Position numbers and translations under genes: made by a program
The notes under the pieces: model-generated
What the model saw: only the letters and a program-made list of their open reading frames with translations
Told to the model about the DNA's origin: nothing
The model's database searches: none
Assembly: GCA_958510875.1 (NCBI GenBank)
Contig: OY294070.1
Span: forward strand, 119,206,703-119,270,702
Direction of reading: 5' to 3'
Source: Endomychus coccineus
Lineage: Eukaryota > Arthropoda > Insecta > Coleoptera > Endomychidae
DNA: 64,000 nt
In this document: piece by piece, positions 34,381 through 46,531 of the stretch
Position numbering within the stretch: the stretch's first letter is position 1
Layout: each line of letters begins with the position of its first letter

Positions 34381-35262
34381 CAGGCCTATCGGCTTCATTT
34401 TCAGATTATAGCTCCGTTACATATCACTCAAATCAGGAGACCTTAAGTGAATGTAAGATGGAAATTGAAGATACGGCACAAAATTGGTTCACCAGAAATA
34501 AACTAAAATTAAATCTGGCTAAGACACAAAATATTATTTTTTCGGCAAATCCAATACATCAAACTGACGAGCCTGTACGACTTTTAGGATTCCATCTCGA
34601 TCCTGGGTTAAATTGGAAGTTACACATTAGCACCTTATCAAAAAAACTCTCTGCGCAATTATTCCTTCTTCGACGACTTGAAACAATTCTTTCACATGAC
34701 TGCCTTTTAAATGCATATCACGCATTATTCCAGTCCTATATTACTTATGGGGTGGTTCTATGGGGAAACTCTGTATATGCAAACAACATTCTAATTCTTC
34801 AAAAAAAAGCAATTAGGATAATAGCTAGCATTAATAGTAAGGATTCATGTAGACCTTTTTTTGTCAAATTTAAAATACTGACACTTGCTAACCTGTTTAT
34901 TTTACATTATGTTGTGTACATTCATAAAAATATCAACTTATTCGTTTCAAATGATAACGTACATCATTATCCCACTCGTTTGGGACAAAATCTGCGACCC
35001 CTTGAACTTAACCTGACGGTCTCTCGGAAAAATTCCTGGCAGGTCCAACTGTTTAATAAAATCCCGCTCAGTCTCAGACACCTGCAGCACAGAAAATACA
35101 AGAGCAAACTTAAAATGTTTCTCACTGCTCATTGTTTTTTCTCTATCAATGAATTTTTGAATTTTGAGGAGTGGAGTGATTTGCTAGTCTAGTATATATC
35201 TTGTTTATTTAATCTTCTATGTTTTATTTATGTAACGTTGTAATTTTTTAATTAATTGTTTT
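34381..35262 (+). pseudogene. non-LTR retrotransposon 3' end, left of the Polinton
   Basis: A 244-codon open frame (34458-35192) encodes the RT thumb and C-terminus: 'WFTRNKLKLNLAKTQNIIFS', 'VRLLGFHLDPGLNWKLHI', 'LFQSYITYGVVLWGNS', 'KKAIRIIA'. The stop at 35190-35192 is followed by 70 bp of 3' UTR and then the Polinton insertion point. The rest of the UTR and a (CTTT)n tail continue at 46532-46620. The element is 5'-truncated but this frame is unbroken, so it is fairly young. Confidence 0.8.
35257..35262. repeat. left target-site duplication of the Polinton
   Basis: TGTTTT, identical to 46526-46531. Six base pairs is the duplication length known for Polinton/Maverick integration. Confidence 0.9.
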
Positions 35263-35445
35263 AGTAGATATACTGGACTACTTCTACGACAAAAACCAAG
35301 ATGGCGGCCATAGGGGTGTCGGTCCGGTGATAAGGATCGGTTGTTTGTAAAGAGTATACAGGGTGCGTGCAAAAAGTGTGTCACATGAAAGAGTATACAG
35401 GGTGTGTGCAAAAAGTGTGTCACAGGGTCACGTGACTATCACGGC

Positions 35446-35690
35446 CCTAAGGTACAGCTGTCATGGCGACCATAAGGTACAGCTGTCATGGCGATCATAA
35501 GATCCAACTGTCATGGCGACCATAAGGTACAGCTGTCATGGCGACCATAAGATCCAACTGTCATGGTGACCATAAGGTACAGCTGTCATGGCGACCATAA
35601 GATCCAACTGTCATGGCGACCATAAGGTCCAACTGTCATGGCGACCATAAGGTTCAACTGTCATGGTGACCATAAGGTCCAACTGTCATG
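35446..35690 (+). repeat. 25-bp tandem array in left TIR (about 10 units)
   Basis: Units are AAGGTACAGCTGTCATGGCG plus ACCAT, in alternating variants (GGTACAGCTG / GATCCAACTG). The right TIR has ten units too, but in a slightly different order of variants, showing turnover within the array after or during element copying. There are no spacers, so it is not a CRISPR array. Confidence 0.85.
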
Positions 35691-35925
35691 ATTGCGTTGT
35701 AGAGGTGTCGCCACCACGTGACAGCTGTCATGGTGGACCTATGGTACAGATTGCTTCGTAGAGGTGTCGCCACCAAGTGACAGCTGTCATGGCGAACCTA
35801 AGGTACAGATTGCTTCGTAGAGATGTCGCAACCACATGACAGCTGTCATGGTGGACCTAAGGTACAGATTGCTTCGTAGAGGTGTCACCACCAAGTGACA
35901 GCTGTCATGACGAACCTAAGGTACA
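35690..35925 (+). repeat. 59-bp tandem array in left TIR (4 units)
   Basis: Each unit runs AGATTGCTTCGTAGAGGTGT…GACAGCTGTCAT…CTAAGGTAC and contains the palindrome ACAGCTGT. The right TIR keeps only two units (46080-45965 read in reverse), which accounts for most of the length difference between the repeats. Confidence 0.8.
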
Positions 35926-35929
35926 GATT

Positions 35930-35962
35930 GCTTCGTGGAGGTGCGAAGCACCTCTACGAAGC
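35930..35962 (+). repeat. 33-bp hairpin in left TIR
   Basis: Fifteen-base arms GCTTCGTGGAGGTGC and GCACCTCTACGAAGC (one G-T position) around a GAA loop. The same hairpin is at 45931-45963. Possible protein-binding or replication-related structure; no direct evidence. Confidence 0.7.
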
Positions 35963-37147
35963 ATTCTGTACCTTTGGTTCAAAAGGTATAGACTGATACG
36001 TGGAGATGGCGCCACCAGTTCGACTCGACCGACTCATGCGGCTCGCAAGCGACTTCGATAAATGAAAGGTCGGAGATCATCGGCTACAACGTTTCGTGCG
36101 ACTTCGCAGACTCGTTCTAGTTTGCGGGTGTTAATATCGATGAGGACAGTATAGCTCAAGATGAAGTGTGTGGCGGTCGACATTCAGAGCTTCCAAATCT
36201 CATACCATGGTTCAACTAGGTGTCCGTGGAGGCTCTGCCATCTTTGAATGAACTAGTGTGACGGCACATGCCTCATGTGTTTTTCATCGGCTTAAGCATC
36301 AGAGTGAAGGGGTCTACACCGGAAGTCGTTATTTTATTGCTTATTTTGAATCTACATGATGAGCTGAACAAGATTTTCATCGACTCGATGAATTTTATGA
36401 TTTACATGGGGAAAAATCTAATATCGGGCATGTAAACAGGAAAAACTGTAAATTTTGCTGCAACTATAGCTTCATGGATATCAAATGAAAGGTCTTGATG
36501 TGTAGAATGTGAATTTCCAACATTTTCGTGAAAAAATGCCATATCGTACATGTAGATGAGGAAAAACCTCTGAATATAGCTTTATGGAGGGTGTCACGTG
36601 TGTTACATCGATGAGGTGGTCAACGAGGTGTCTCTCACGCAGGTCTTCAGTGTGGTGTCATGGCATACCGTAGTCATAGAAACCATAGAGCTACAGAGCA
36701 CAACCAGTCACAACCATAGAGCTAAAGGTTATAGAGCTAACCTGAGTCGCAGACTGGAAGAGGTGTCATGGTGTCTGTCATGTGGGTCTTCAACGAGGTG
36801 TCTTGGTGTCTACCGTGTGAACTGTCATGGAGGATCTTTCATAGCGTGTGTTTCCATATTTTTGATATGAGGAAAATCAATATGATGCATACAAATTGGG
36901 GTGGGGAGAACATCAAGCTATAGCTTCATGTGTATCAAAATACACAATGATTTTGACGAGTGAGTGGTGTTTTATTGAATTGAAGATCCGGCGACCATCG
37001 TTCACGAACGATGATGACGTCACTGCTCCAAGCCAATGACAGTAACTGATTCAATCCGGCGACCATAGTTTACGAACGATGATGGGTAGATGTGAATAAT
37101 TATAATGATTGTAATGCATTCATGCACATGTTTTATCGCGTGATTCA

Positions 37148-37280
37148 ACACGTGCTTCAACATGCAGACACGTGTTTCAGACACGTGCTTCAGTATCCAG
37201 ACACGTGTTTCAACATTCAGACACGTGTTTCAACATTCAGACACGTGTTTCAACATTCAGACACGTGTTCCAGCATTCAT
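37148..37280 (+). promoter_or_regulatory. array of seven CACGTG palindromes, 20-bp unit
   Basis: ACACGTGTTTCAACATTCAG-type units start at 37148, 37168, 37181, 37201, 37221, 37241 and 37261; the spacing is 20 bp except one 13-bp step. CACGTG is the E-box bound by bHLH factors. The array straddles the inner end of the TIR and lies about 120 bp upstream of the first gene; a mirrored array is at 44642-44745. A role as enhancer or iteron-like site is inference. Confidence 0.6.
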
Positions 37281-37375
37281 ACCTATTTAACATGTATTTG
37301 ATACCTGATTTTGACAGAACCGTAGAAGCACCTAACCGCGCGATCAGACATACACAATATAACATCATCATCTAG

Positions 37376-37383
37376 TATATAAA
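37376..37383 (+). promoter_or_regulatory. TATA box-like element before the ATPase gene
   Basis: TATATAAA. A start of transcription about 30 bp on would fall near 37406, just after the first ATG (37401). If this box is used, translation would begin at the paired ATGs at 37434/37437 (residues 12-13). Confidence 0.4.
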
Positions 37384-37400
37384 CAAATGCTTATTAACAT

Positions 37401-38126
37401 ATGTTCCAGTATGATTTCGATTCGCCTCCAGGCATGATGAAGATTGTTAAGCAAAAAGACTCGTTGAGTATTATGAACTTAGGGTCAAGCAATGAGAATG
37501 TTGAACAACCACAACGTCACAGCTCTCTGCTGCCTAATACTCTACGAACAATAATCTGTGGTCCAAGTAATTGTGGGAAAACAAATGTGATGTTATCTCT
37601 ATTGTTAGATGCAAACGGTCTGAAATTTGAAAACGTGTACATATATTCAAAGTCTTTACACCAACCAAAATACCAGTTACTAAAGGAGACATTGAAGAAA
37701 ATTGAGGGGCTTGGATATTTTCCTTGTACCGAAAGTGATGAGGTCATAGACCCCACAGAAGCGAGGCCCAATTCAATCATAATATTCGATGACGTGATGT
37801 TTGAGAAACAGGAGAAAATTCGTGCTTATTTTTCAAGAGGGAGACACAACTCAATTGATAGTTTCTATCTTTGCCAGTCTTTTGCTAAATGTCCAAAACA
37901 TGGATTGCGCGACAATGCCAATTGCTTGATTATTTTCAAACAGGATGAGCTCAATTTGAAACATATATTCACCGATCATATAAGTACCGACATGTCACTC
38001 GAAAAATTCAAAGAGATATGTAGCGTATGTTGGAAAGATAAATATGGATTCCTTATGATAAACAAAGACTGTGATATGAACAAAGGACGTTATCGCAAAG
38101 GTTTTGATAGTTATATATACATCTAA
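37401..38126 (+). CDS. A32/FtsK-type genome-packaging ATPase
   Basis: 241 residues. It should drive DNA packaging into the capsid by ATP hydrolysis. Walker A GPSNCGKT is at residues 54-61, after a beta strand (TLRTIIC). Walker B SIIIFDD is at 125-131, followed by 'FSRGRHN' (144-150) and the 'LCQSF' strand (157-161) characteristic of viral A32-like ATPases of Polintons and large DNA viruses. The length is typical of Polinton ATPases and the frame is intact. First gene of the plus-strand block; the next gene follows 42 bp after its stop. The ATG at 37401 gives the longest product, but a start at residue 12 or 13 is possible given the TATA position. Confidence 0.9.
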   Translation: MFQYDFDSPPGMMKIVKQKDSLSIMNLGSSNENVEQPQRHSSLLPNTLRTIICGPSNCGKTNVMLSLLLDANGLKFENVYIYSKSLHQPKYQLLKETLKKIEGLGYFPCTESDEVIDPTEARPNSIIIFDDVMFEKQEKIRAYFSRGRHNSIDSFYLCQSFAKCPKHGLRDNANCLIIFKQDELNLKHIFTDHISTDMSLEKFKEICSVCWKDKYGFLMINKDCDMNKGRYRKGFDSYIYI

Positions 38127-38130
38127 CATG

Positions 38131-38138
38131 TATATATA
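38131..38138 (+). promoter_or_regulatory. TATA-like element before the DUF8207-like gene
   Basis: TATATATA lies 38 bp upstream of the ATG at 38169, the right distance for a short-leader transcript. Confidence 0.35.
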
Positions 38139-38168
38139 CTTTCATTTGAAATAGACAACCCGCTCAGC

Positions 38169-39233
38169 ATGGACGTGGGTGTGAGTAACACGCTTAAAGA
38201 AAAACAACAATTGAAGAGAATAATTTGGGAGTTAGCAAACGTTGTGAGGAAAAAATATATGGCTGTGAAATTGGGTAAAGCTGAAAATGATGAGATTCTA
38301 GATAATATGTTCAGGAATGTATCTAAACCTCTGGAGGAAATTGCGAAAAATGCTGAAATGATCAAACAAAATTCGTTGGTTAAACCTAAAAGTATTGTTT
38401 CTACAGCAACACAAATGGAGACCATACCAATCCCAAATATTGTAACTGAAGGGGAAGAGTTCGTATATAACCCCCAAAATACTGAGGAGGATGTGTTTAC
38501 CCTCGAACCTACTATCGATCAGATTCGTGAAGAATTCAGAAAACATAAGAAAGATAATGCAGAGGCTACAGAGGAGTTTCTGCAACAATACCCCACATTA
38601 GCACGTTATTACTTGGAGGGATTCCTATTGGATGATGATGTCAAGAAATACGATGATAGAATGGGATTGCAATATAATTCAACTTTAGACAAATGGTTCA
38701 TGGGTAATCAACCTATAGAAATTGATAGTGAGAGTAATATAATTATCAAGGGTACTCCGTTCAAGGGTACCACAGGACTGTATAATTTGATATTTTACAG
38801 AGATGTTCTACCTGATACTTACACTGTGGAAGATGGGAAAAATTACAGTCAAATGATGGAAATGACTAGTGCCCATAGGCGTAATAACGATCCAGCTGAT
38901 CGAATAAGAAACATTGTAAAATACAAAAATGTACTGAAACCTTTGATTAATTCCATGAAAAGACCCAGAGCCGAAACATACACTGGAAGTGCATATATCA
39001 AAAATGATATGCTTGAATATAACGAGAAACATATCGAATATGTTTATTGGGATGACGTTAACGAAATTGTGGATAGACTGAGACTTCTTGTTGCATCCTC
39101 GCATGCAGGTAACCATAATCATCACAATGAGATAATCTCTATAATAGAAGAATTGATAGAGGCAGGGGTAATTGAACAAAAACCAGGTGTAAGACAAATT
39201 CATCTCAGTTATAAAGATGGTTTCAATGGATAA
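38169..39233 (+). CDS. DUF8207-like protein of Polintons
   Basis: 354 residues, intact. Function unknown. The N-terminal third is helical and charged. The region at about 173-215 ('LDKWFMGNQPIEID', 'IIIKGTPFKGTTGLYNLIF') and the C-terminal block ('YVYWDDVNEIVDRLRLLVAS', then 'NEIISIIEELIEAGVI') are what I recognise from the DUF8207 family. That family is found in many insect genome annotations and appears tied to these elements. The C-terminal E/I-rich helix could be a multimerisation part. Its last 17 bp overlap the start of the next gene, as expected for a compact virus-like genome. A virion or core protein role is inference. Confidence 0.7.
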   Translation: MDVGVSNTLKEKQQLKRIIWELANVVRKKYMAVKLGKAENDEILDNMFRNVSKPLEEIAKNAEMIKQNSLVKPKSIVSTATQMETIPIPNIVTEGEEFVYNPQNTEEDVFTLEPTIDQIREEFRKHKKDNAEATEEFLQQYPTLARYYLEGFLLDDDVKKYDDRMGLQYNSTLDKWFMGNQPIEIDSESNIIIKGTPFKGTTGLYNLIFYRDVLPDTYTVEDGKNYSQMMEMTSAHRRNNDPADRIRNIVKYKNVLKPLINSMKRPRAETYTGSAYIKNDMLEYNEKHIEYVYWDDVNEIVDRLRLLVASSHAGNHNHHNEIISIIEELIEAGVIEQKPGVRQIHLSYKDGFNG

Positions 39234-39870
39234 GTTTGGCAGAGCCTCCTCTTCCATGTGGATATATGATACAAATGTATTTAATAATAATTTCAAACAA
39301 GTTCACGGACAAGGATTATTCCTAACGAGCGATGGAAGTTATGATATGGAAAATCGTAGATTGTGCAACGTAAAATCACCGAATGATGATGGAGATGTTG
39401 CAAATAAAGTATATGTTGATAAATTAACACACAAACTGAATCTGAAAACGGAAACCAGTCTTAAAGATACCTTCAATGTTAGGGTTGATAATTTGATCAA
39501 AGATATCAACAAGGATCTGGATGAACATAACTTAACGAATGACAAGGTTATTCTCAACATTGATAAACATCTGATGGACATTCAGAATAAATATAATGGA
39601 ATGGGGATCTATATAAAATCAGAGTATAAAACAATCAGTGATAGTGTGAGGGAAAACAGAAATGAATTGAAAGAGATCAATAACACATTTAACAGTGTGA
39701 ACATGCGTCTAAATGACATTACTAGTAAAGTGGAGGCGTTAGAACGACGGATGACATCTGTGGAACCTTCTAAGAAGAGACCCTCATCATCCACAACAAC
39801 AAAGCAGGGCTCTGTGAAACGTATATCTCCAAATCCTGTGAATATACCCAAAAAATTAATTCTACACTAG
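39217..39870 (+). CDS. fibre-like coiled-coil protein
   Basis: 217 residues. Residues 43-70 hold 'DMENRRLCNVKSPNDDGDVA' and then 'NKVYVDKL': the (R-R-L)-x-N-V-x-x-P-x-D-x-x-D-A/V-x-N-K-x-Y-V-D motif widely seen in phage tail fibres and other trimeric attachment fibres. It is followed by a heptad-rich stretch (about 72-195) that looks like a long coiled coil, and a basic S/T-rich tail. No signal peptide or membrane segment. I infer a trimeric spike or fibre of the particle; this is structural analogy, not homology I can prove. A start at residue 4 (39226) is an alternative that shortens the overlap with the upstream gene. Confidence 0.6.
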   Translation: MVSMDKFGRASSSMWIYDTNVFNNNFKQVHGQGLFLTSDGSYDMENRRLCNVKSPNDDGDVANKVYVDKLTHKLNLKTETSLKDTFNVRVDNLIKDINKDLDEHNLTNDKVILNIDKHLMDIQNKYNGMGIYIKSEYKTISDSVRENRNELKEINNTFNSVNMRLNDITSKVEALERRMTSVEPSKKRPSSSTTTKQGSVKRISPNPVNIPKKLILH

Positions 39871-39887
39871 ATTTCCACATTGATAAG

Positions 39888-40811
39888 ATGAGTAGAGAAC
39901 AAGTTGTGCATGAGCTTCATAAGCCGAGTAGGAAGAATTTCAAACGACGCAGAACGATCATAAAAGGTTTGGATGATTTGTGGCAAATGGATCTGGCAGA
40001 AATGGGTAATTACGCTCGTGAAAATAGAGGATTCAAATACATTTTGATTATGATCGATTGTTTCTCGAAATTTCTATGGACACGCCCGCTGAAAACGAAA
40101 TCAGCCGAAGAAGTTCGGAAAGCGGTCAGTTCTATATTGCTAGAAGGACATCGTAAGCCTAGGAATCTGCAAAGCGATCAGGGAAAAGAATTCTTCAATA
40201 AACACTTTAACGATCTAATGAAGAAACATAATATCAATCATTATAATACGTATAGTGTGAAAAAAGCAGCCATTGCTGAACGTGTCATTCGAACGTTAAA
40301 GGAATCGCTCTACAAACATTTCAGTCTCAGCGGGAAATACAAATGGCTTGATATACTTGAAGAAACCACAGAAAAATATAATAAACGTAAACATAGTACT
40401 ATAAATATGGCTCCAATGAAAGTGACGAAACAGATTGAGAGCGAGATATTGAAGCGATCCTACTCACACATCAAGTTAGCTCTGCCTCACAAATACAACG
40501 TAGGAGATGTGGTACGAATAAGTAAGGCTAAACATATTTTTGAGAAGGGATTTACGCCCAATTGGAGTACGGAATTATTTAAAATCATCAAAGTAAAAAT
40601 TACCAACCCGGTCACATATCTACTAGAAGATATGACCAACGCACCAATCAGCGGCTGTTTCTACGAGGAAGAATTACAGAAAACAAAACAACCCGATGTG
40701 TATTTAGTCGAAAAAATATTACGGAAGAGGAGGGGTCAACAGTATGTGAAATGGTTGGGTCTAGATAATAATCACAACAGTTGGATCAATAATTCGGATC
40801 TCGTTCAATGA
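39888..40811 (+). CDS. retroviral-type integrase with C-terminal chromodomain
   Basis: 307 residues, intact. It inserts the element's DNA by strand transfer, which fits the 6-bp duplication. rve fold: D35 in 'WQMDLAEM', D97 in 'LQSDQGKEF' and E131 in 'AAIAERVIRTLKE' form the D-D-E triad, with 33 residues between the last two. An SH3-like region follows ('HKYNVGDVVRISK', about 201-213), then a chromodomain (271-307: 'VEKILRKRRGQQYVKWLG', H-N-S-W). The N-terminal HHCC zinc domain of retroviral integrases is absent, as in many Polinton integrases. The chromodomain could steer insertion to particular chromatin. It starts 17 bp after the fibre-like gene. Confidence 0.92.
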   Translation: MSREQVVHELHKPSRKNFKRRRTIIKGLDDLWQMDLAEMGNYARENRGFKYILIMIDCFSKFLWTRPLKTKSAEEVRKAVSSILLEGHRKPRNLQSDQGKEFFNKHFNDLMKKHNINHYNTYSVKKAAIAERVIRTLKESLYKHFSLSGKYKWLDILEETTEKYNKRKHSTINMAPMKVTKQIESEILKRSYSHIKLALPHKYNVGDVVRISKAKHIFEKGFTPNWSTELFKIIKVKITNPVTYLLEDMTNAPISGCFYEEELQKTKQPDVYLVEKILRKRRGQQYVKWLGLDNNHNSWINNSDLVQ

Positions 40812-41091
40812 ATCTATCATTGATCATTTGGAGATTATTAGGAACAAACAAATAGCTGGAATATTATTGACTCGAGGGTATGGTTATTATAATAGAACAA
40901 AAATTCCGTGAATATGAGGGTGAATCAAGAGTGAAGATTATAATATTTGAAACATATATTGTTAAGATTATACTTAAGTCTTTTGTATTGAGAAAATTTT
41001 GAAATTAATAAAAAATATTATTTTGAGATCTTTGATCTTTCTCCCTCCCCTCGTTAAATAACGGTGCAATCTTGAATTTTCATCAGTCTGT
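40812..41091. other. gap between gene blocks with polyadenylation signal
   Basis: 280 bp, AT-rich, with AATAAA at 41007-41012. It probably ends the transcript(s) of the first block and precedes the promoter of the second. Confidence 0.45.
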
Positions 41092-41873
41092 ATGGAAGCG
41101 TACGTAGGAGAAGGTGTTCTCAATACGCTTATAAACAAGCTCCCGTTTGAACTTCATATTCCTGGTTATCAATTCTGTGGTCCCGGTACAAAATTAGAAG
41201 AACGGTTGAGAAGAGGAGATTCAGGTATCAATCCACTCGATAAAGCTTGCCGCCAACACGATATTTCATATCTGCGAAACGCTAGTTTGGAAGGACGTCA
41301 CGAGGCGGATAAAATATTAGAGAACGCTGCTTGGCAACGTGTCAAATCTAAAGACACAAAATTTGGAGAAAGGATTGCCGCTTTCGGTGTAAATAAAATT
41401 ATGAAGGCAAAGAGGAAATTGGGAATGGGTATGAGAAAGAAGGTTGGGTTCGGAAGTGCAATTGTCGATGGGGTGAGAAAAGTTATGAAGAATAAGTTTG
41501 ACTCATCCAATCTGAAGAAAACATCCCAAACAGCGTTGAAAGTTGCACGAAAACAATTCAAAAAAGCGGGTGGTCGGAAAAATGTTCGGTTACCAAGAGT
41601 AATTCCTATTCCAAAGACTGGAGGATTTCTACCATTTTTAATACCTCTGTTTGCCGGCTTATCAGCTGCTGGAGCATTGGCGGGGGTGGTGCAGGCATCG
41701 CTAAGGCCGTCAACGACAGCAAAGCAGCTCGGAAAACCTTGGAGGAAACGGAAAGACATAATAAAACAATGGAAGCTATAGCTTTGGGGAAACAAGGATC
41801 TGGTCTATATTTGAAAAAGTATCGCAAAGGTCTTGGCCTATATTTAAATAAACATCCAAAAAACTGTCAGTAA
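41092..41873 (+). CDS. VP1-like phospholipase A2 protein, frameshifted near its C-terminus
   Basis: The open frame is 229 residues (41092-41781). Residues 23-60 carry the secreted-PLA2 signature found in parvovirus VP1 and adintovirus proteins: calcium loop 'YQFCGPGT' (26-33) and catalytic 'HDISY' (H56, D57). In those viruses the enzyme opens endosomal membranes during entry. A basic region follows (about 100-175), then a hydrophobic stretch 'FLPFLIPLFAGLSAAGALAG' (178-197). At the G-run 41682-41686 the frame changes character: the -1 frame stays open to TAA at 41871-41873 and has a regular charged helix and two G-L-Y-L-K-type words, whereas the zero frame ends early and looks random. So a base was lost in the G-run, or reading slips there. 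Confidence 0.82.
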
Positions 41874-42244
41874 ACCTACCCAGAAGACCTCTGACCGATC
41901 TCGATCTACGAAAACTAGCAAAAGCTCTGAAAATTCCCCATTTTAGAGGAGTATTTATGCTTGATGAACTACCATCCAACGGACCATGGAAAAACGAGCG
42001 TGGAATAGTTAATTTAGATAGCTCGGACAATGGAGGCACTCACTGGGTTGGGTTTAATAAAGTCGGTGATACAGTTTTATATTATGATAGTTTTGGCAAT
42101 TTACGCCCCCCTCGCGAACTAGTGGATTATTTCAAAAAGTGTAAGATATTATTCAATCACGATAATTTTCAACAATATAACACTTATAATTGTGGTCAGT
42201 TATGTTTGGAATTCCTCTCTAACTCTTCAGTTGTGCTCGACTAA
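41852..42244 (+). CDS. adenain-like cysteine protease (start codon unclear)
   Basis: Matures capsid proteins in adenoviruses and Polintons. Counting from the ATG at 41957 (95 residues): H29 in 'THWVGF', D44 in 'YYDSFG', Q72 in 'FQQYNT', C79 in 'YNCGQLCLEFL' give the full H-D-Q-C set, with the Q-to-C spacing of 7 as in adenain. But the frame is open for 35 more codons upstream (41852-41956), reading 'LPRRPLTDLDLRKLAKALKI' and 'PHFRGVF', which looks like true protein and matches the N-terminal helix expected before this core. No ATG occurs there. Either the start has mutated, a non-ATG start is used, or the gene depends on the overlapping upstream frame. Length including this part (about 131) is normal for the family. 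Confidence 0.8.
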   Translation, partial: TSKKLSVNLPRRPLTDLDLRKLAKALKIPHFRGVFMLDELPSNGPWKNERGIVNLDSSDNGGTHWVGFNKVGDTVLYYDSFGNLRPPRELVDYFKKCKILFNHDNFQQYNTYNCGQLCLEFLSNSSVVLD

Positions 42245-42259
42245 CCCTGCATTTATTAG

Positions 42260-42267
42260 TATATAAA
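42260..42267 (+). promoter_or_regulatory. TATA box-like element before minor capsid gene
   Basis: TATATAAA 36 bp upstream of the ATG at 42296. Confidence 0.4.
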
Positions 42268-42295
42268 TAGATTGTTGGTAAAGTTTGCATCAATC

Positions 42296-43038
42296 ATGTC
42301 TCAGACGTTCACTATCACGGGTAAGAGCTCCCGCTTATCTGTAGATTTCCACCCACCTATAGAACTAGATCCTCATTCATATTATTCTATCGCACTTGTT
42401 GGCTTGCATACGTACAATAGCATTCCGAACATTGAAGAAGGTTTTAATAAATTTTATTATAAAAATGTGAAGGGTGAGGAAGAAGTAGTAACTATACCTA
42501 CGGGGTCCTACGAGTTGACAGACATCGAGGATTTCATACAAAGTGCAGTTTGTGGGATAGGAGTGAAGCAAGAAGAACGTGACCGAAATTATCAATAAAA
42601 TCTAACAACAACACTCTACACACAGAGCTGAAGAGTGATTTTGAAGTGAATTTTATTCCTAAAGATAGTATAAGCGAACTGTTGGGATTCAGCAAAAAGA
42701 AATTGACATCTCGCGAACTACACGTATCTGATCGACCTATAAACATAATCAAAGTTCAAACAATACGTGTTGAGTGTAACTTAACCGCAGGAGCATATTA
42801 TAACAATAAGATAGCTCATACGATATATGAGTTCTCACCTCTTGTACCACCTGGGTTTTCCATTGATATAGAGCCGAAGAATCTTATTTATCTACCGGTC
42901 ATCAGCAAGACGTCCTTCGATAACATCACGCTGAATATTTTAGATCAGAATTGGAAACCGGTAAATTTTCGTGGAGAAGAAATTATTGTACGATTGGAAT
43001 TGAAAAAGATCGTTAGGGATTATACCTCACAACAATAA
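42296..43038 (+). CDS. minor capsid (penton-like) protein, split by a frameshift
   Basis: Two adjoining frames make one protein. Part 1 (ATG 42296 to stop 42598) reads 'MSQTFTITGKSSRLSVDFHP', 'YYSIALVGLHTYNSIPNI' and 'GSYELTDIEDFIQ'. Part 2 is open from 42583 in another frame, reading 'SNNNTLHTELKSDFEVNFIP', 'SISELLGF' and 'PLVPPGFSIDIEP' to the stop at 43038. The shift lies within a few bases of 42580-42585, where a stop in the second frame sits immediately upstream; loss of a single base there explains it. The pattern (N-terminal beta strands, '…N-N-T-L…L-L-G-F…P-G…') is that of Polinton single-jelly-roll minor capsid proteins, which form the vertices. I use 42296, not an upstream TTG, as the start. 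Confidence 0.75.
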
Positions 43039-43118
43039 ATAATAATCCAATACTCACCACCACTCATTATATGAAAGGAATTCAACTGAGAAGGTTGCAG
43101 TAGCCATCACTTGAGAAC

Positions 43119-43298
43119 ATGGGTTTAGATTTCAGAAATAAAAGACATCCCCATAGTGGTCATCAGTCATTATCTACAACGAGCTCGAAGGAGAAGGTTG
43201 CTACTGCAGCATTATCATTGGAGAATATAAATTTTTTGAAGTTCCTTGGTTACAATGTCAGAAAAACTTCAAATATTCAACGAGCCAAACTTCATTGA
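43119..43298 (+). CDS. small ORF overlapping the major capsid gene start
   Basis: 59 codons: basic N-terminus 'MGLDFRNKRHPHSGHQ', S/T-rich middle, then 'ALSLENINFLKFLGYNV' and a basic end. Its last 44 nt overlap the start of the major capsid gene in another frame. A short 'L-T/S-x-E-N-x-x-F-L-x-x-L-G' peptide is something I associate with small Polinton proteins, but I cannot name it. Too short to be sure it is translated. Confidence 0.45.
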   Translation: MGLDFRNKRHPHSGHQSLSTTSSKEKVATAALSLENINFLKFLGYNVRKTSNIQRAKLH

Positions 43299-44457
43299 AG
43301 ACATCATCCGAGAAGAAACTCACACCTACTATCCACACACAACATCTTTTGGCAACAGCGATGAAGTTGAGATATTAATCAATCAACAAGACGTGTTGGT
43401 AGATTTGGCATCGTCTGCTTTATTCATCGAGGCAGAATTCCAGCCAGAAGCAAGTGGTGATGGTGAATGTAAACTAACGAATAATTTCGGAGCGTTTCTC
43501 TTCGAATATATCAGTTATGAATTGAATGGGAAAGAGATAGACAAAGTACGTGATCCTGGTATTGTCAGCACCATCAGAGCTTATCTAACATATTCCAAAC
43601 ATGAATCTATACCTCTAGCTATTTCTGGATGGTCATTTAAGGATGCACTGAGTTCAGTCTACAATAATAAAATCAATTTATGGATACCGTTGAATTTTCT
43701 ACTAGGCCTATTCATTGACTATAACAAAGTTTTGAGTGGAAAACATAAGTTGCGCTTGATAAGGTCTCGAACCGATAACAATTGCTATACTAATAGCACA
43801 GGCACGAAGAGGGCTAAAATAAATGTGAAGACGATAGCATTAAAAGTGCGACATGTGTTTCCAAGTGATCAAGTTAAACTTCAAATGTTGGAGAATTTGA
43901 GTGCTGAGAAGCCTATTTTGATTCCATTCCGTAGTTGGGATCTGCATGAAAATCCGTTGATGAAGGAGAGCACTCGCGACATTTGGGCTGTTAAAACATC
44001 AATGAATTTGGAACGCCCCAGATATGTGATTCTAGCTTTCCAAACTGATCGAAAAAATAATCCTGTGAAGCACAGTGCATATTTCGATAATATAAACTTG
44101 CTAAATGTAAAATTATACTTGAATTCAGAGTGTTATCCCTATGAAGCAATGAAATTGAATTTCACCGACCAGCAATACATGGAAGCATACCAGATGTACT
44201 ATGATTTCCAGAAATCATTTTCAAATAAAATAATAAGCGAGCCCATGTTGGATTATATAGCATTCAAGAATAGAGCAATTTTTGTTATTGATTGTTCAAA
44301 ACAGAACGATGCTATGAAGTCATCAACAGTTGACGTCAAACTAGAGATGGAAAGTTTCCTGAATTTCCCCAAAAACACCAGGGCTTATTGCATCATCATT
44401 AACGACCGTATAATGGAGTATTCCCCGATTACAGGATCAGTTCGGAGTTTAGTGTGA
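43255..44457 (+). CDS. major capsid protein (double jelly-roll, hexon-like)
   Basis: 400 residues from the ATG at 43255 (a TTG 9 nt upstream is unlikely). Beta-rich throughout, with landmarks 'EILINQQDVLVDLASSALFI', 'EYISYELNGKEIDKVRDPGI', 'NLWIPLNFLLGLFIDYNKVL', and near the C-terminus 'RAIFVIDCSKQND' and 'RAYCIIINDRIMEYSPITG'. These match the insect Polinton-type capsid proteins that I recognise as double jelly-roll hexon relatives. It would build the icosahedral shell with the minor capsid protein at the vertices. The frame is unbroken. A polyadenylation signal AATAAA follows at 44529-44534. Confidence 0.85.
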   Translation: MSEKLQIFNEPNFIEDIIREETHTYYPHTTSFGNSDEVEILINQQDVLVDLASSALFIEAEFQPEASGDGECKLTNNFGAFLFEYISYELNGKEIDKVRDPGIVSTIRAYLTYSKHESIPLAISGWSFKDALSSVYNNKINLWIPLNFLLGLFIDYNKVLSGKHKLRLIRSRTDNNCYTNSTGTKRAKINVKTIALKVRHVFPSDQVKLQMLENLSAEKPILIPFRSWDLHENPLMKESTRDIWAVKTSMNLERPRYVILAFQTDRKNNPVKHSAYFDNINLLNVKLYLNSECYPYEAMKLNFTDQQYMEAYQMYYDFQKSFSNKIISEPMLDYIAFKNRAIFVIDCSKQNDAMKSSTVDVKLEMESFLNFPKNTRAYCIIINDRIMEYSPITGSVRSLV

Positions 44458-44528
44458 AGAGCCAGGTCATGAATCATAATGTTATTATTTTAATTACAAA
44501 TGATGTACTATCAAAATGTATTCTTCCC

Positions 44529-44534
44529 AATAAA
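44529..44534 (+). terminator. polyadenylation signal after major capsid gene
   Basis: AATAAA 72 bp past the stop; the last unique sequence before the right CACGTG array. Confidence 0.5.
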
Positions 44535-44641
44535 TGTTATCATTACTATTTTTGGCATTTTATTTCTCAAACAGGGTGGCAGTGCTGTAATTATTCAGCG
44601 TTCATAGTTGTTCACAGACTGCTAGCAGGTATCCATTATGT

Positions 44642-44745
44642 CACGTGCTTAACACGTGTCTGAAACACGTGTCTGAATGTTGAAGCACGTGTCTGGATAC
44701 TGAAGCACGTGTCTGAAACATGTGTCTGCATGTTGAAGCACGTGT
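44642..44745 (-). promoter_or_regulatory. mirrored CACGTG array at inner right TIR
   Basis: CACGTG at 44642, 44653, 44666, 44686, 44706 and 44739, with one CATGTG variant near 44719. Counterpart of 37148-37280, with different copy number. Confidence 0.55.
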
Positions 44746-46525
44746 TGAATCACGCGATAAAACATGTGCATGAATGCATTACAATCATTATAATTATTCA
44801 CATCTACCCATCATCGTTCGTAAACTATGGTCGCCGGATTGAATCAGTTACTGTCATTGGCTTGGAGCAGTGACGTCATCATCGTTCGTGAACGATGGTC
44901 GCCGGATCTTCAATTCAATAAAACACCACTCACTCGTCAAAATCATTGTGTATTTTGATACACATGAAGCTATAGCTTGATGTTCTCCCCACCCCAATTT
45001 GTATGCATCATATTGATTTTCCTCATATCAAAAATATGGAAACACACGCTATGAAAGATCCTCCATGACAGTTCACACGGTAGACACCAAGACACCTCGT
45101 TGAAGACCCACATGACAGACACCATGACACCTCTTCCAGTCTGCGACTCAGGTTAGCTCTATAACCTTTAGCTCTATGGTTGTGACTGGTTGTGCTCTGT
45201 AGCTCTATGGTTTCTATGACTACGGTATGCCATGACACCACACTGAAGACCTGCGTGAGAGACACCTCGTTGACCACCTCATCGATGTAACACACGTGAC
45301 ACCCTCCATAAAGCTATATTCAGAGGTTTTTCCTCATCTACATGTACGATATGGCATTTTTTCACGAAAATGTTGGAAATTCACATTCTACACATCAAGA
45401 CCTTTCATTTGATATCCATGAAGCTATAGTTGCAGCAAAATTTACAGTTTTTCCTGTTTACATGCCCGATATTAGATTTTTCCCCATGTAAATCATAAAA
45501 TTCATCGAGTCGATGAAAATCTTGTTCAGCTCATCATGTAGATTCAAAATAAGCAATAAAATAACGACTTCCGGTGTAGACCCCTTCACTCTGATGCTTA
45601 AGCCGATGAAAAACACATGAGGCATGTGCCGTCACACTAGTTCATTCAAAGATGGCAGAGCCTCCACGGACACCTAGTTGAACCATGGTATGAGATTTGG
45701 AAGCTCTGAATGTCGACCGCCACACACTTCATCTTGAGCTATACTGTCCTCATCGATATTAACACCCGCAAACTAGAACGAGTCTGCGAAGTCGCACGAA
45801 ACGTTGTAGCCGATGATCTCCGACCTTTCATTTATCGAAGTCGCTTGCGAGCCGCATGAGTCGGTCGAGTCGAACTGGTGGCGCCATCTCCACGTATCAG
45901 TCTATACCTTTTGAACCAAAGGTACAGAATGCTTCGTAGAGGTGCTTCGCACCTCCACGAAGCAATCTGTACCTTAGGTTCGTCATGACAGCTGTCACTT
46001 GGTGGTGACACCTCTACGAAGCAATCTGTACCATAGGTCCACCATGACAGCTGTCACGTGGTGGCGACACCTCTACAACGCAATCATGACAGTTGGACCT
46101 TATGGTCACCATGACAGTTGAACCTTATGGTCGCCATGACAGTTGGACCTTATGGTCGCCATGACAGTTGGATCTTATGGTCGCCATGACAGCTGTACCT
46201 TATGGTTGCCATGACAGTTGAACCTTATGGTCGCCATGACAGTTGGATCTTATGGTCGCCATGACAGCTGTACCTTATGGTTGCCATGACAGTTGGATCT
46301 TATGGTCGCCATGACAGCTGTACCTTAGGGCCGCCATGCTGTCATGTGTTAGTCACGTGACCCTGTGACACACTTTTTGCACACACCCTGTATACTCTTT
46401 CATGTGACACACTTTTTGCACGCACCCTGTATACTCTTTACAAACAACCGATCCTTATCACCGGACCGACACCCCTATGGCCGCCATCTTGGTTTTTGTC
46501 GTAGAAGTAGTCCAGTATATCTACT
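44655..46525 (-). repeat. right terminal inverted repeat of the Polinton
   Basis: About 1.87 kb. It is shorter than the left arm mainly because it has two 59-bp units instead of four; it also has about 14 extra bases near 46340. A 90-codon ORF in it (45023-45295) is identical in translation to 36598-36870 on the left, showing how similar the arms are; it has no known domain and is probably not a gene. Confidence 0.88.
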
Positions 46526-46531
46526 TGTTTT
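46526..46531. repeat. right target-site duplication of the Polinton
   Basis: TGTTTT, exact match to 35257-35262. Confidence 0.9.

Follow-up and report, generated by a model that had tools for sequence, protein, structure and literature searches.

The 64,000 nt stretch of Endomychus coccineus DNA examined here (the window: contig OY294070.1, positions 119,206,703 to 119,270,702, forward strand) contains, at 35263-46525, a Polinton-like element that belongs to a large, young Polinton family without a polymerase gene in any copy read. The element carries a retrovirus-like integrase, a packaging ATPase and a double-jelly-roll capsid protein, all of which are hallmarks of Polinton/Maverick elements, as are its inverted repeats and target-site duplication, which were read on the window copy, the right-hand flank being seen only there. 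Polymerase B is regarded as making Polintons self-synthesising. The protein-primed polymerase B of Polinton/Maverick elements was not found, and the element is filed as a polymerase-free variant sharing the morphogenesis and integration genes rather than as a standard Polinton. We consider it probable that this young, amplified family is replicated in trans by the polymerase B of another Polinton, while using an integrase and capsid of its own.

Searching the window element revealed no match to the DNA_pol_B_2 profile, either in the nine gene open reading frames (ORFs; E≤0.1) or in another 60 ORFs, delimited from stop to stop, within the internal region (E≤0.01). The intergenic gaps reach about 280 bp at most, which leaves no space for a polymerase gene. 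These searches bear out an earlier note on this DNA, which had reported neither a polymerase B gene nor a gap large enough for one. The same note had raised the possibility of a polymerase domain in the DUF8207-like gene. The predicted model of this protein (mean predicted local distance difference test score 78) gave 33 matches to PDB structures at E≤10, none of them at E≤0.001, and its one match at E≤0.001 among viral structures is another DUF8207 protein. A polymerase hidden in this gene was rejected, as no polymerase fold was found in either comparison.

The family is abundant in the 906 Mb genome, in which all counts of places given here are lower bounds. The window capsid protein matched at least 103 places at 98-100 % identity, 101 of which are stop-free, and the integrase matched at least 129 places at 98-100 % identity, 128 of which are open; the two genes are 3358-3371 bases apart in 30 of 31 pairs and 3068 bases apart in one. 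A second capsid query returned at least 103 places, including 67 that were not in the first list. Thirteen of these represent a related family, referred to here as family 2 (open frames mostly of 406 aa), and the other 54 are provisionally assigned to the window family by their scores.

At 20 of the 102 other capsid places the sequence was read from the capsid gene to 9.9 kb upstream, and none of the 20 contained a recognisable polymerase when searched with 123 polymerase queries. There were 34 matches in total across these copies; the best one in each, which was the one examined, comprised 29-31 residues of the tail of a single query and coincides in position with the ATPase gene end. The longest open frame in the 20 copies is no more than 375 codons on either strand, and all three loci used as positive controls were matched by the polymerase queries. 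The gene order of the window was kept in 14 of the 20. As the same layout is found in many copies, the window element is not a lone deletion product, which the earlier note had named as the alternative; the other copies repeat the polymerase-free layout and are mostly open.

The remaining six copies (L014, L016, L020, L021, L022 and L028) lack the integrase, most of the PLA2 gene and part of the protease gene, and keep the ATPase, DUF8207, minor capsid and major capsid genes, mostly open. The left end was located by motif in 13 of the 20 copies, with differing adjacent bases in 11, and L014 and L020 have a common extra 855 bp. Seven copies were also fetched downstream, and all contained repeat sequence within 1.5 kb past the capsid gene, continuous with that of the window in five. 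A 1.2-kb repeat probe identified 40 places, 30 of which form 15 inverted pairs (paired by hand), with probe-edge spans of 10.0-10.4 kb in 12 pairs and 8.1-8.2 kb in three. An exact 27-bp pattern of the element end occurred 75 + 79 times, compared with none for a reversed control pattern, and the first 100 of these end places yielded 42 neighbouring inverted pairs less than 60 kb apart. Eighteen of these pairs are 9.8-12.5 kb apart, and a listed capsid place is present in 16 of the 18. The full lengths of the 15 repeat pairs and of these 16 end pairs are too short to accommodate a 3.8-kb polymerase as well. A further 15 pairs are considered below, and the remaining nine have other sizes. One short interval, C1:220097548-220098781, consists of 1.2 kb between two inverted copies of the 27-bp end and is possibly a short derivative.

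The differences between copies suggest that selection acts on the ATPase, DUF8207 and minor capsid genes, because those separating the integrase-plus from the integrase-less group are mostly silent. The ratio of amino-acid-changing to silent differences (pN/pS) was calculated from raw differences, uncorrected for multiple hits, between full-length open frames of equal length. Of the 21 copies available (the 20 further copies and the window), 20 were used for the ATPase, 21 for DUF8207, 19 for the coiled-coil gene and 18 for the minor capsid gene; of the 15 integrase-plus copies, which also include the window, 13 were used for the integrase and 11 for PLA2. Between the integrase-plus and integrase-less copies, at silent divergences (pS) of 0.11-0.18, the ATPase gene gave a pN/pS of 0.10, the DUF8207 gene 0.19-0.21 and the minor capsid gene 0.15-0.20. 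Comparison of the two groups of integrase-plus copies, at pS of 0.01-0.05, gave 0.14 for both the integrase and PLA2 and 0.20 for the ATPase. The groups also appear to have exchanged sequence. The capsid gene of the integrase-less copy L007 is identical over 1209 bases to those of the integrase-plus copies L002, L005 and L006, whereas the genes beside it in that integrase-less copy (L014) differ from those of the window by about 4-6 %. An identical capsid gene despite divergent neighbouring genes points to recent recombination between the two groups, among copies that were picked by capsid similarity.

Candidate helper polymerases are present in the same genome, in four kinds (class I, class II, family 2 and PolB-3). 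A Pfam polymerase profile search identified at least 76 places, which the pattern of scores sorts into 13 of class I and 63 of class II; the family-2 and PolB-3 polymerases are not among the places listed. The family-2 polymerase-like gene was found at at least 20 places and PolB-3 (63-64 % identical) at at least 37. These genes are seldom near the window family: among the places listed, only four of the at least 76 Pfam places are less than 40 kb from one of the 103 capsid places, and at this distance none is near the 67 additional capsid places. When the 157 capsid places of the window family were compared at a distance of 30 kb, one of 37 PolB-3 places and none of the 19 family-2 places entered (of 20) was near one of them. 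As the lists of places are lower bounds, the separation of capsid and polymerase rests mainly on the copies read. One of the four cases within 40 kb, a capsid copy on C5 that lies beside a class II polymerase, is best explained as a capsid element inserted into a polymerase repeat.

Family 2 (L040-L042, read in parts at one place) is a relative with a putative polymerase. It carries a capsid module on one strand, a module of ATPase, DUF8207, coiled-coil and integrase genes on the opposite strand, and five extra ORFs. Its proteins are 71 % (ATPase), 66 % (integrase), 59 % (PLA2), 71 % (protease) and 56-68 % (minor capsid) identical to those of the window, with 81 % identity over the first 57 aa of the major capsid protein and 41 % for DUF8207. 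Unlike the window family, family 2 has a polymerase-like gene, the five extra ORFs and an ATPase-integrase module on the other strand, and the two are not colinear, as the order of the modules differs. A minus-strand frame of 1269 aa, with a match to Endonuclease_7, a YTDTDS motif and polymerase relatives at best E=1.3e-7, has no DNA_pol_B_2 match at E≤0.01, and is taken here as a putative polymerase and called polymerase-like. The capsid place lies within 4.3 kb of this gene in 11 of 13 cases, which indicates that the separation seen in the window family is not an effect of the method. Past the family-2 capsid gene, a 163-aa gene (L041:82-570) shares 38 % identity with the tail region of the Molorchus capsid model P0019, which is probably a fused gene model.

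The only class I locus read (L029) also contains an integrase and an ATPase. Among class II polymerases, at least 37 full-length copies were scored, of which 29 are stop-free, and their relatives are mostly beetle proteins at up to 65-67 % identity. No homologue of any window protein was found within about 3.6 kb upstream or 2.4 kb downstream of the class II genes L030 and L031. Among the class II loci examined (L030, L031 and L034-L039), one polymerase copy is flanked by inverted arms at least about 6 kb long, and two copies stand head to head.

Because the polymerase is missing, we infer that the window family depends on a helper. Copying by the protein-primed polymerase B of that helper would begin at the ends of the repeats, the shell proteins of the element would package the DNA copy and its own integrase would insert it, giving the 6-bp duplication; integrase-less copies would use the integrase of a sister. 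Candidate sources of the polymerase are family 2, PolB-3, the two classes I and II, and the longer, as yet unread elements that share the ends of the window family. The earlier note had compared the element to a satellite that kept its own shell. The polymerase-free layout with capsid and integrase agrees with that description, being repeated and mostly open in other copies, whereas replication in trans is a proposal based on gene content. An integrase acting as a cut-and-paste transposase, with host replication alone multiplying the element, would be in line with the integrase, the inverted repeats and the duplication of 6 bp, yet it leaves the retention of ATPase and capsid genes unexplained. 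Integrases of the retroviral type, moreover, act by joining linear DNA, and excision by them is not known; we regard this explanation as very improbable.

Several of our observations weigh against replication by a helper as proposed here. The helper, the particle and the mode of replication are deduced from genes, and the 20 copies were drawn from a ranking by similarity of the capsid, a choice biased towards intact capsid genes. In the comparison of the two integrase-plus groups, the minor capsid, DUF8207 and coiled-coil genes reached pN/pS values of 0.33, 0.65 and 0.71, respectively. Within groups the ratio scatters between 0.1 and 2.1, with few differences to count, and some of the constraint may be older than the loss of the polymerase. 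In addition, 15 of the 42 end pairs delimit uniform elements of 18.3-18.8 kb whose gene content is unread (e.g. C2:114824348-114842800). No capsid, integrase or polymerase place among those listed falls within them, although this absence proves little as the lists are lower bounds. These elements may be a polymerase-bearing partner or parent, and the window family might be derived from them. Such a derivation could have been a recent deletion followed by a burst in which the parent multiplied the derivative, the capsid and integrase genes being open from youth rather than from use. The near-identity of the copies, the scattered within-group ratios and the existence of longer elements with the same ends are all consistent with this. 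We nevertheless find it unlikely, as the changes between the integrase-plus and integrase-less groups are mostly silent at pS of 0.11-0.18, though neither group has a polymerase, and as the module order is unlike that of family 2, the one complete relative read, so that the window family is no simple deletion of that relative.

The longer elements also bear upon a divided Polinton, in which the polymerase would reside on a partner element that spreads alongside the family and shares its ends, likely the 18.3-18.8-kb elements, so that a single virus would have two DNA molecules. Their uniform size, with the exact 27-bp pattern at both ends and no occurrence of the reversed control, fits this arrangement, as do the class II polymerase genes, which stand apart from other Polinton genes at the two loci read whole and differ between those loci (L030 and L031) with a pN/pS of 0.15. 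However, the 18.3-18.8-kb elements are unread and contain no listed polymerase place, and window-family ends were not found in the class II loci read, whose repeats were read short of their outer ends. Nor do the 37 PolB-3 and 19 family-2 places listed lie within 20 kb of a 27-bp end, save for one family-2 place at 13 kb. We consider a partner of this kind rather doubtful. In its fullest form, the idea describes a divided-genome animal Polinton: a polymerase-free shell-and-integrase element present in more than 100 copies and under selection, a separate polymerase-bearing partner with the same ends on which its reproduction would depend entirely, and an integrase-less third tier depending on both. 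We put this forward as a tentative possibility. Replication in trans by the polymerase of another Polinton is the reading retained in the comparisons that follow.

Insect Mavericks have been described that combine a polymerase with integrase, ATPase, protease and PLA2 capsid genes (PMC5803895). As presented there, Sf Maverick 1 and 2 (adintovirus, Eupolintoviridae) share with the window element an ATPase, an rve integrase with a chromo domain, a PLA2 protein and an adenovirus-type protease, but they carry a polymerase of about 1160 aa, which the window family does not. The inverted repeats and 6-bp duplication are also features of Mavericks (PMC8097293). The opposite loss is known from nine capsid-less Polintons that also lack the protease and ATPase (PMC4028283). 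Many integrated protist elements have no detectable polymerase and, like the window family, bear a capsid gene; these elements often have helicase domains fused to an unknown domain (PMC10120064), whereas the window family is of insect type with an rve integrase and PLA2. Our literature search, which covered few subscription papers, found no insect Polinton with a capsid and integrase but without a polymerase, and no related DNA was found in IMG/VR (searched with the capsid protein and with alignments of the capsid and DUF8207 proteins), prokaryote genomes or phage records.

If replication in trans holds, replication would be uncoupled from packaging and insertion, and the element would be a satellite of a Polinton. 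Virophages and satellite viruses have their own shell and rely on another virus (PMC10120064). The window family would resemble them if its dependence on a helper holds, with the difference that the helper of a virophage is a giant virus and that of the window family would be another Polinton. The long-standing question of whether Polintons form particles also becomes open to direct testing, since the retention of capsid genes would have no evident reason if particles were not formed.

The structure of the window copy, which the earlier note had described as having exact ends, a 6-bp duplication and inverted repeats of about 2 kb, was reproduced in full. TGTTTT flanks both ends as the 6-bp target-site duplication (35257-35262 and 46526-46531), and the terminal sequences match exactly as inverted copies. 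The left terminal inverted repeat (35263-37279, plus strand; about 2 kb) includes 25-bp, 59-bp and 20-bp tandem arrays, and the right repeat occupies 44653-46525 on the minus strand. The longest ungapped stretch between the arms is 1425 nt with 99 % complementarity, and copy number in the tandem arrays is unequal between left and right.

All genes lie on the plus strand, as previously noted, although their number is eight rather than nine since the minor capsid gene is split over two frames. The packaging ATPase (37401-38126; Pox_A32, E=6.4e-6) retains a full-length open frame in 20 of the 21 copies and is followed by the DUF8207-family protein (38169-39233; open in 21 of 21). The DUF8207 assignment rests on relatives carrying PF26634, and the local Pfam copy returned no match for the window protein or for P0121, a relative that carries PF26634. 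The next gene (39217-39870) encodes a coiled-coil, possibly fibre-like protein with weak coiled-coil matches in Pfam, the fibre reading having been made by eye. The retrovirus-like integrase (39888-40811; rve, E=5.6e-15) has a chromo-like end that scores below the Pfam cut-off. Downstream are a PLA2-domain protein (41092-41781; E=1.4e-10), an adenovirus/Ulp1-type protease frame (41852-42244) with weak Pfam matches over a 95-aa part, all below the cut-off at E of about 0.01, and the minor-capsid-like gene (42272-43038), which has no Pfam match. The names 'minor capsid' and 'fibre-like' are presumptive, taken from Polinton gene layouts. The major capsid protein (43246-44457) matches the double-jelly-roll family PF21738 (E=1.2e-90). 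Its relatives at E≤0.001 number 470, and many of those named among the 120 listed are from beetles such as Sitophilus, Molorchus and Aromia, pointing to a beetle as the likely host.

The window copy is damaged, and many other copies are less so. Its PLA2 frame is broken in the last third, whereas PLA2 is open in 11 of the 15 integrase-plus copies, and the minor capsid gene is a single 247-aa frame in 18 of 21 copies. Near-identical arms are thus no proof of an intact copy, and the suggestion that they mark a working form does not hold for this copy, although it agrees with a layout that is mostly open elsewhere. Directly to the left of the element, an ORF at 34458-35192 of the window resembles, by eye, the end of a reverse transcriptase, with no Pfam match at E≤0.001.

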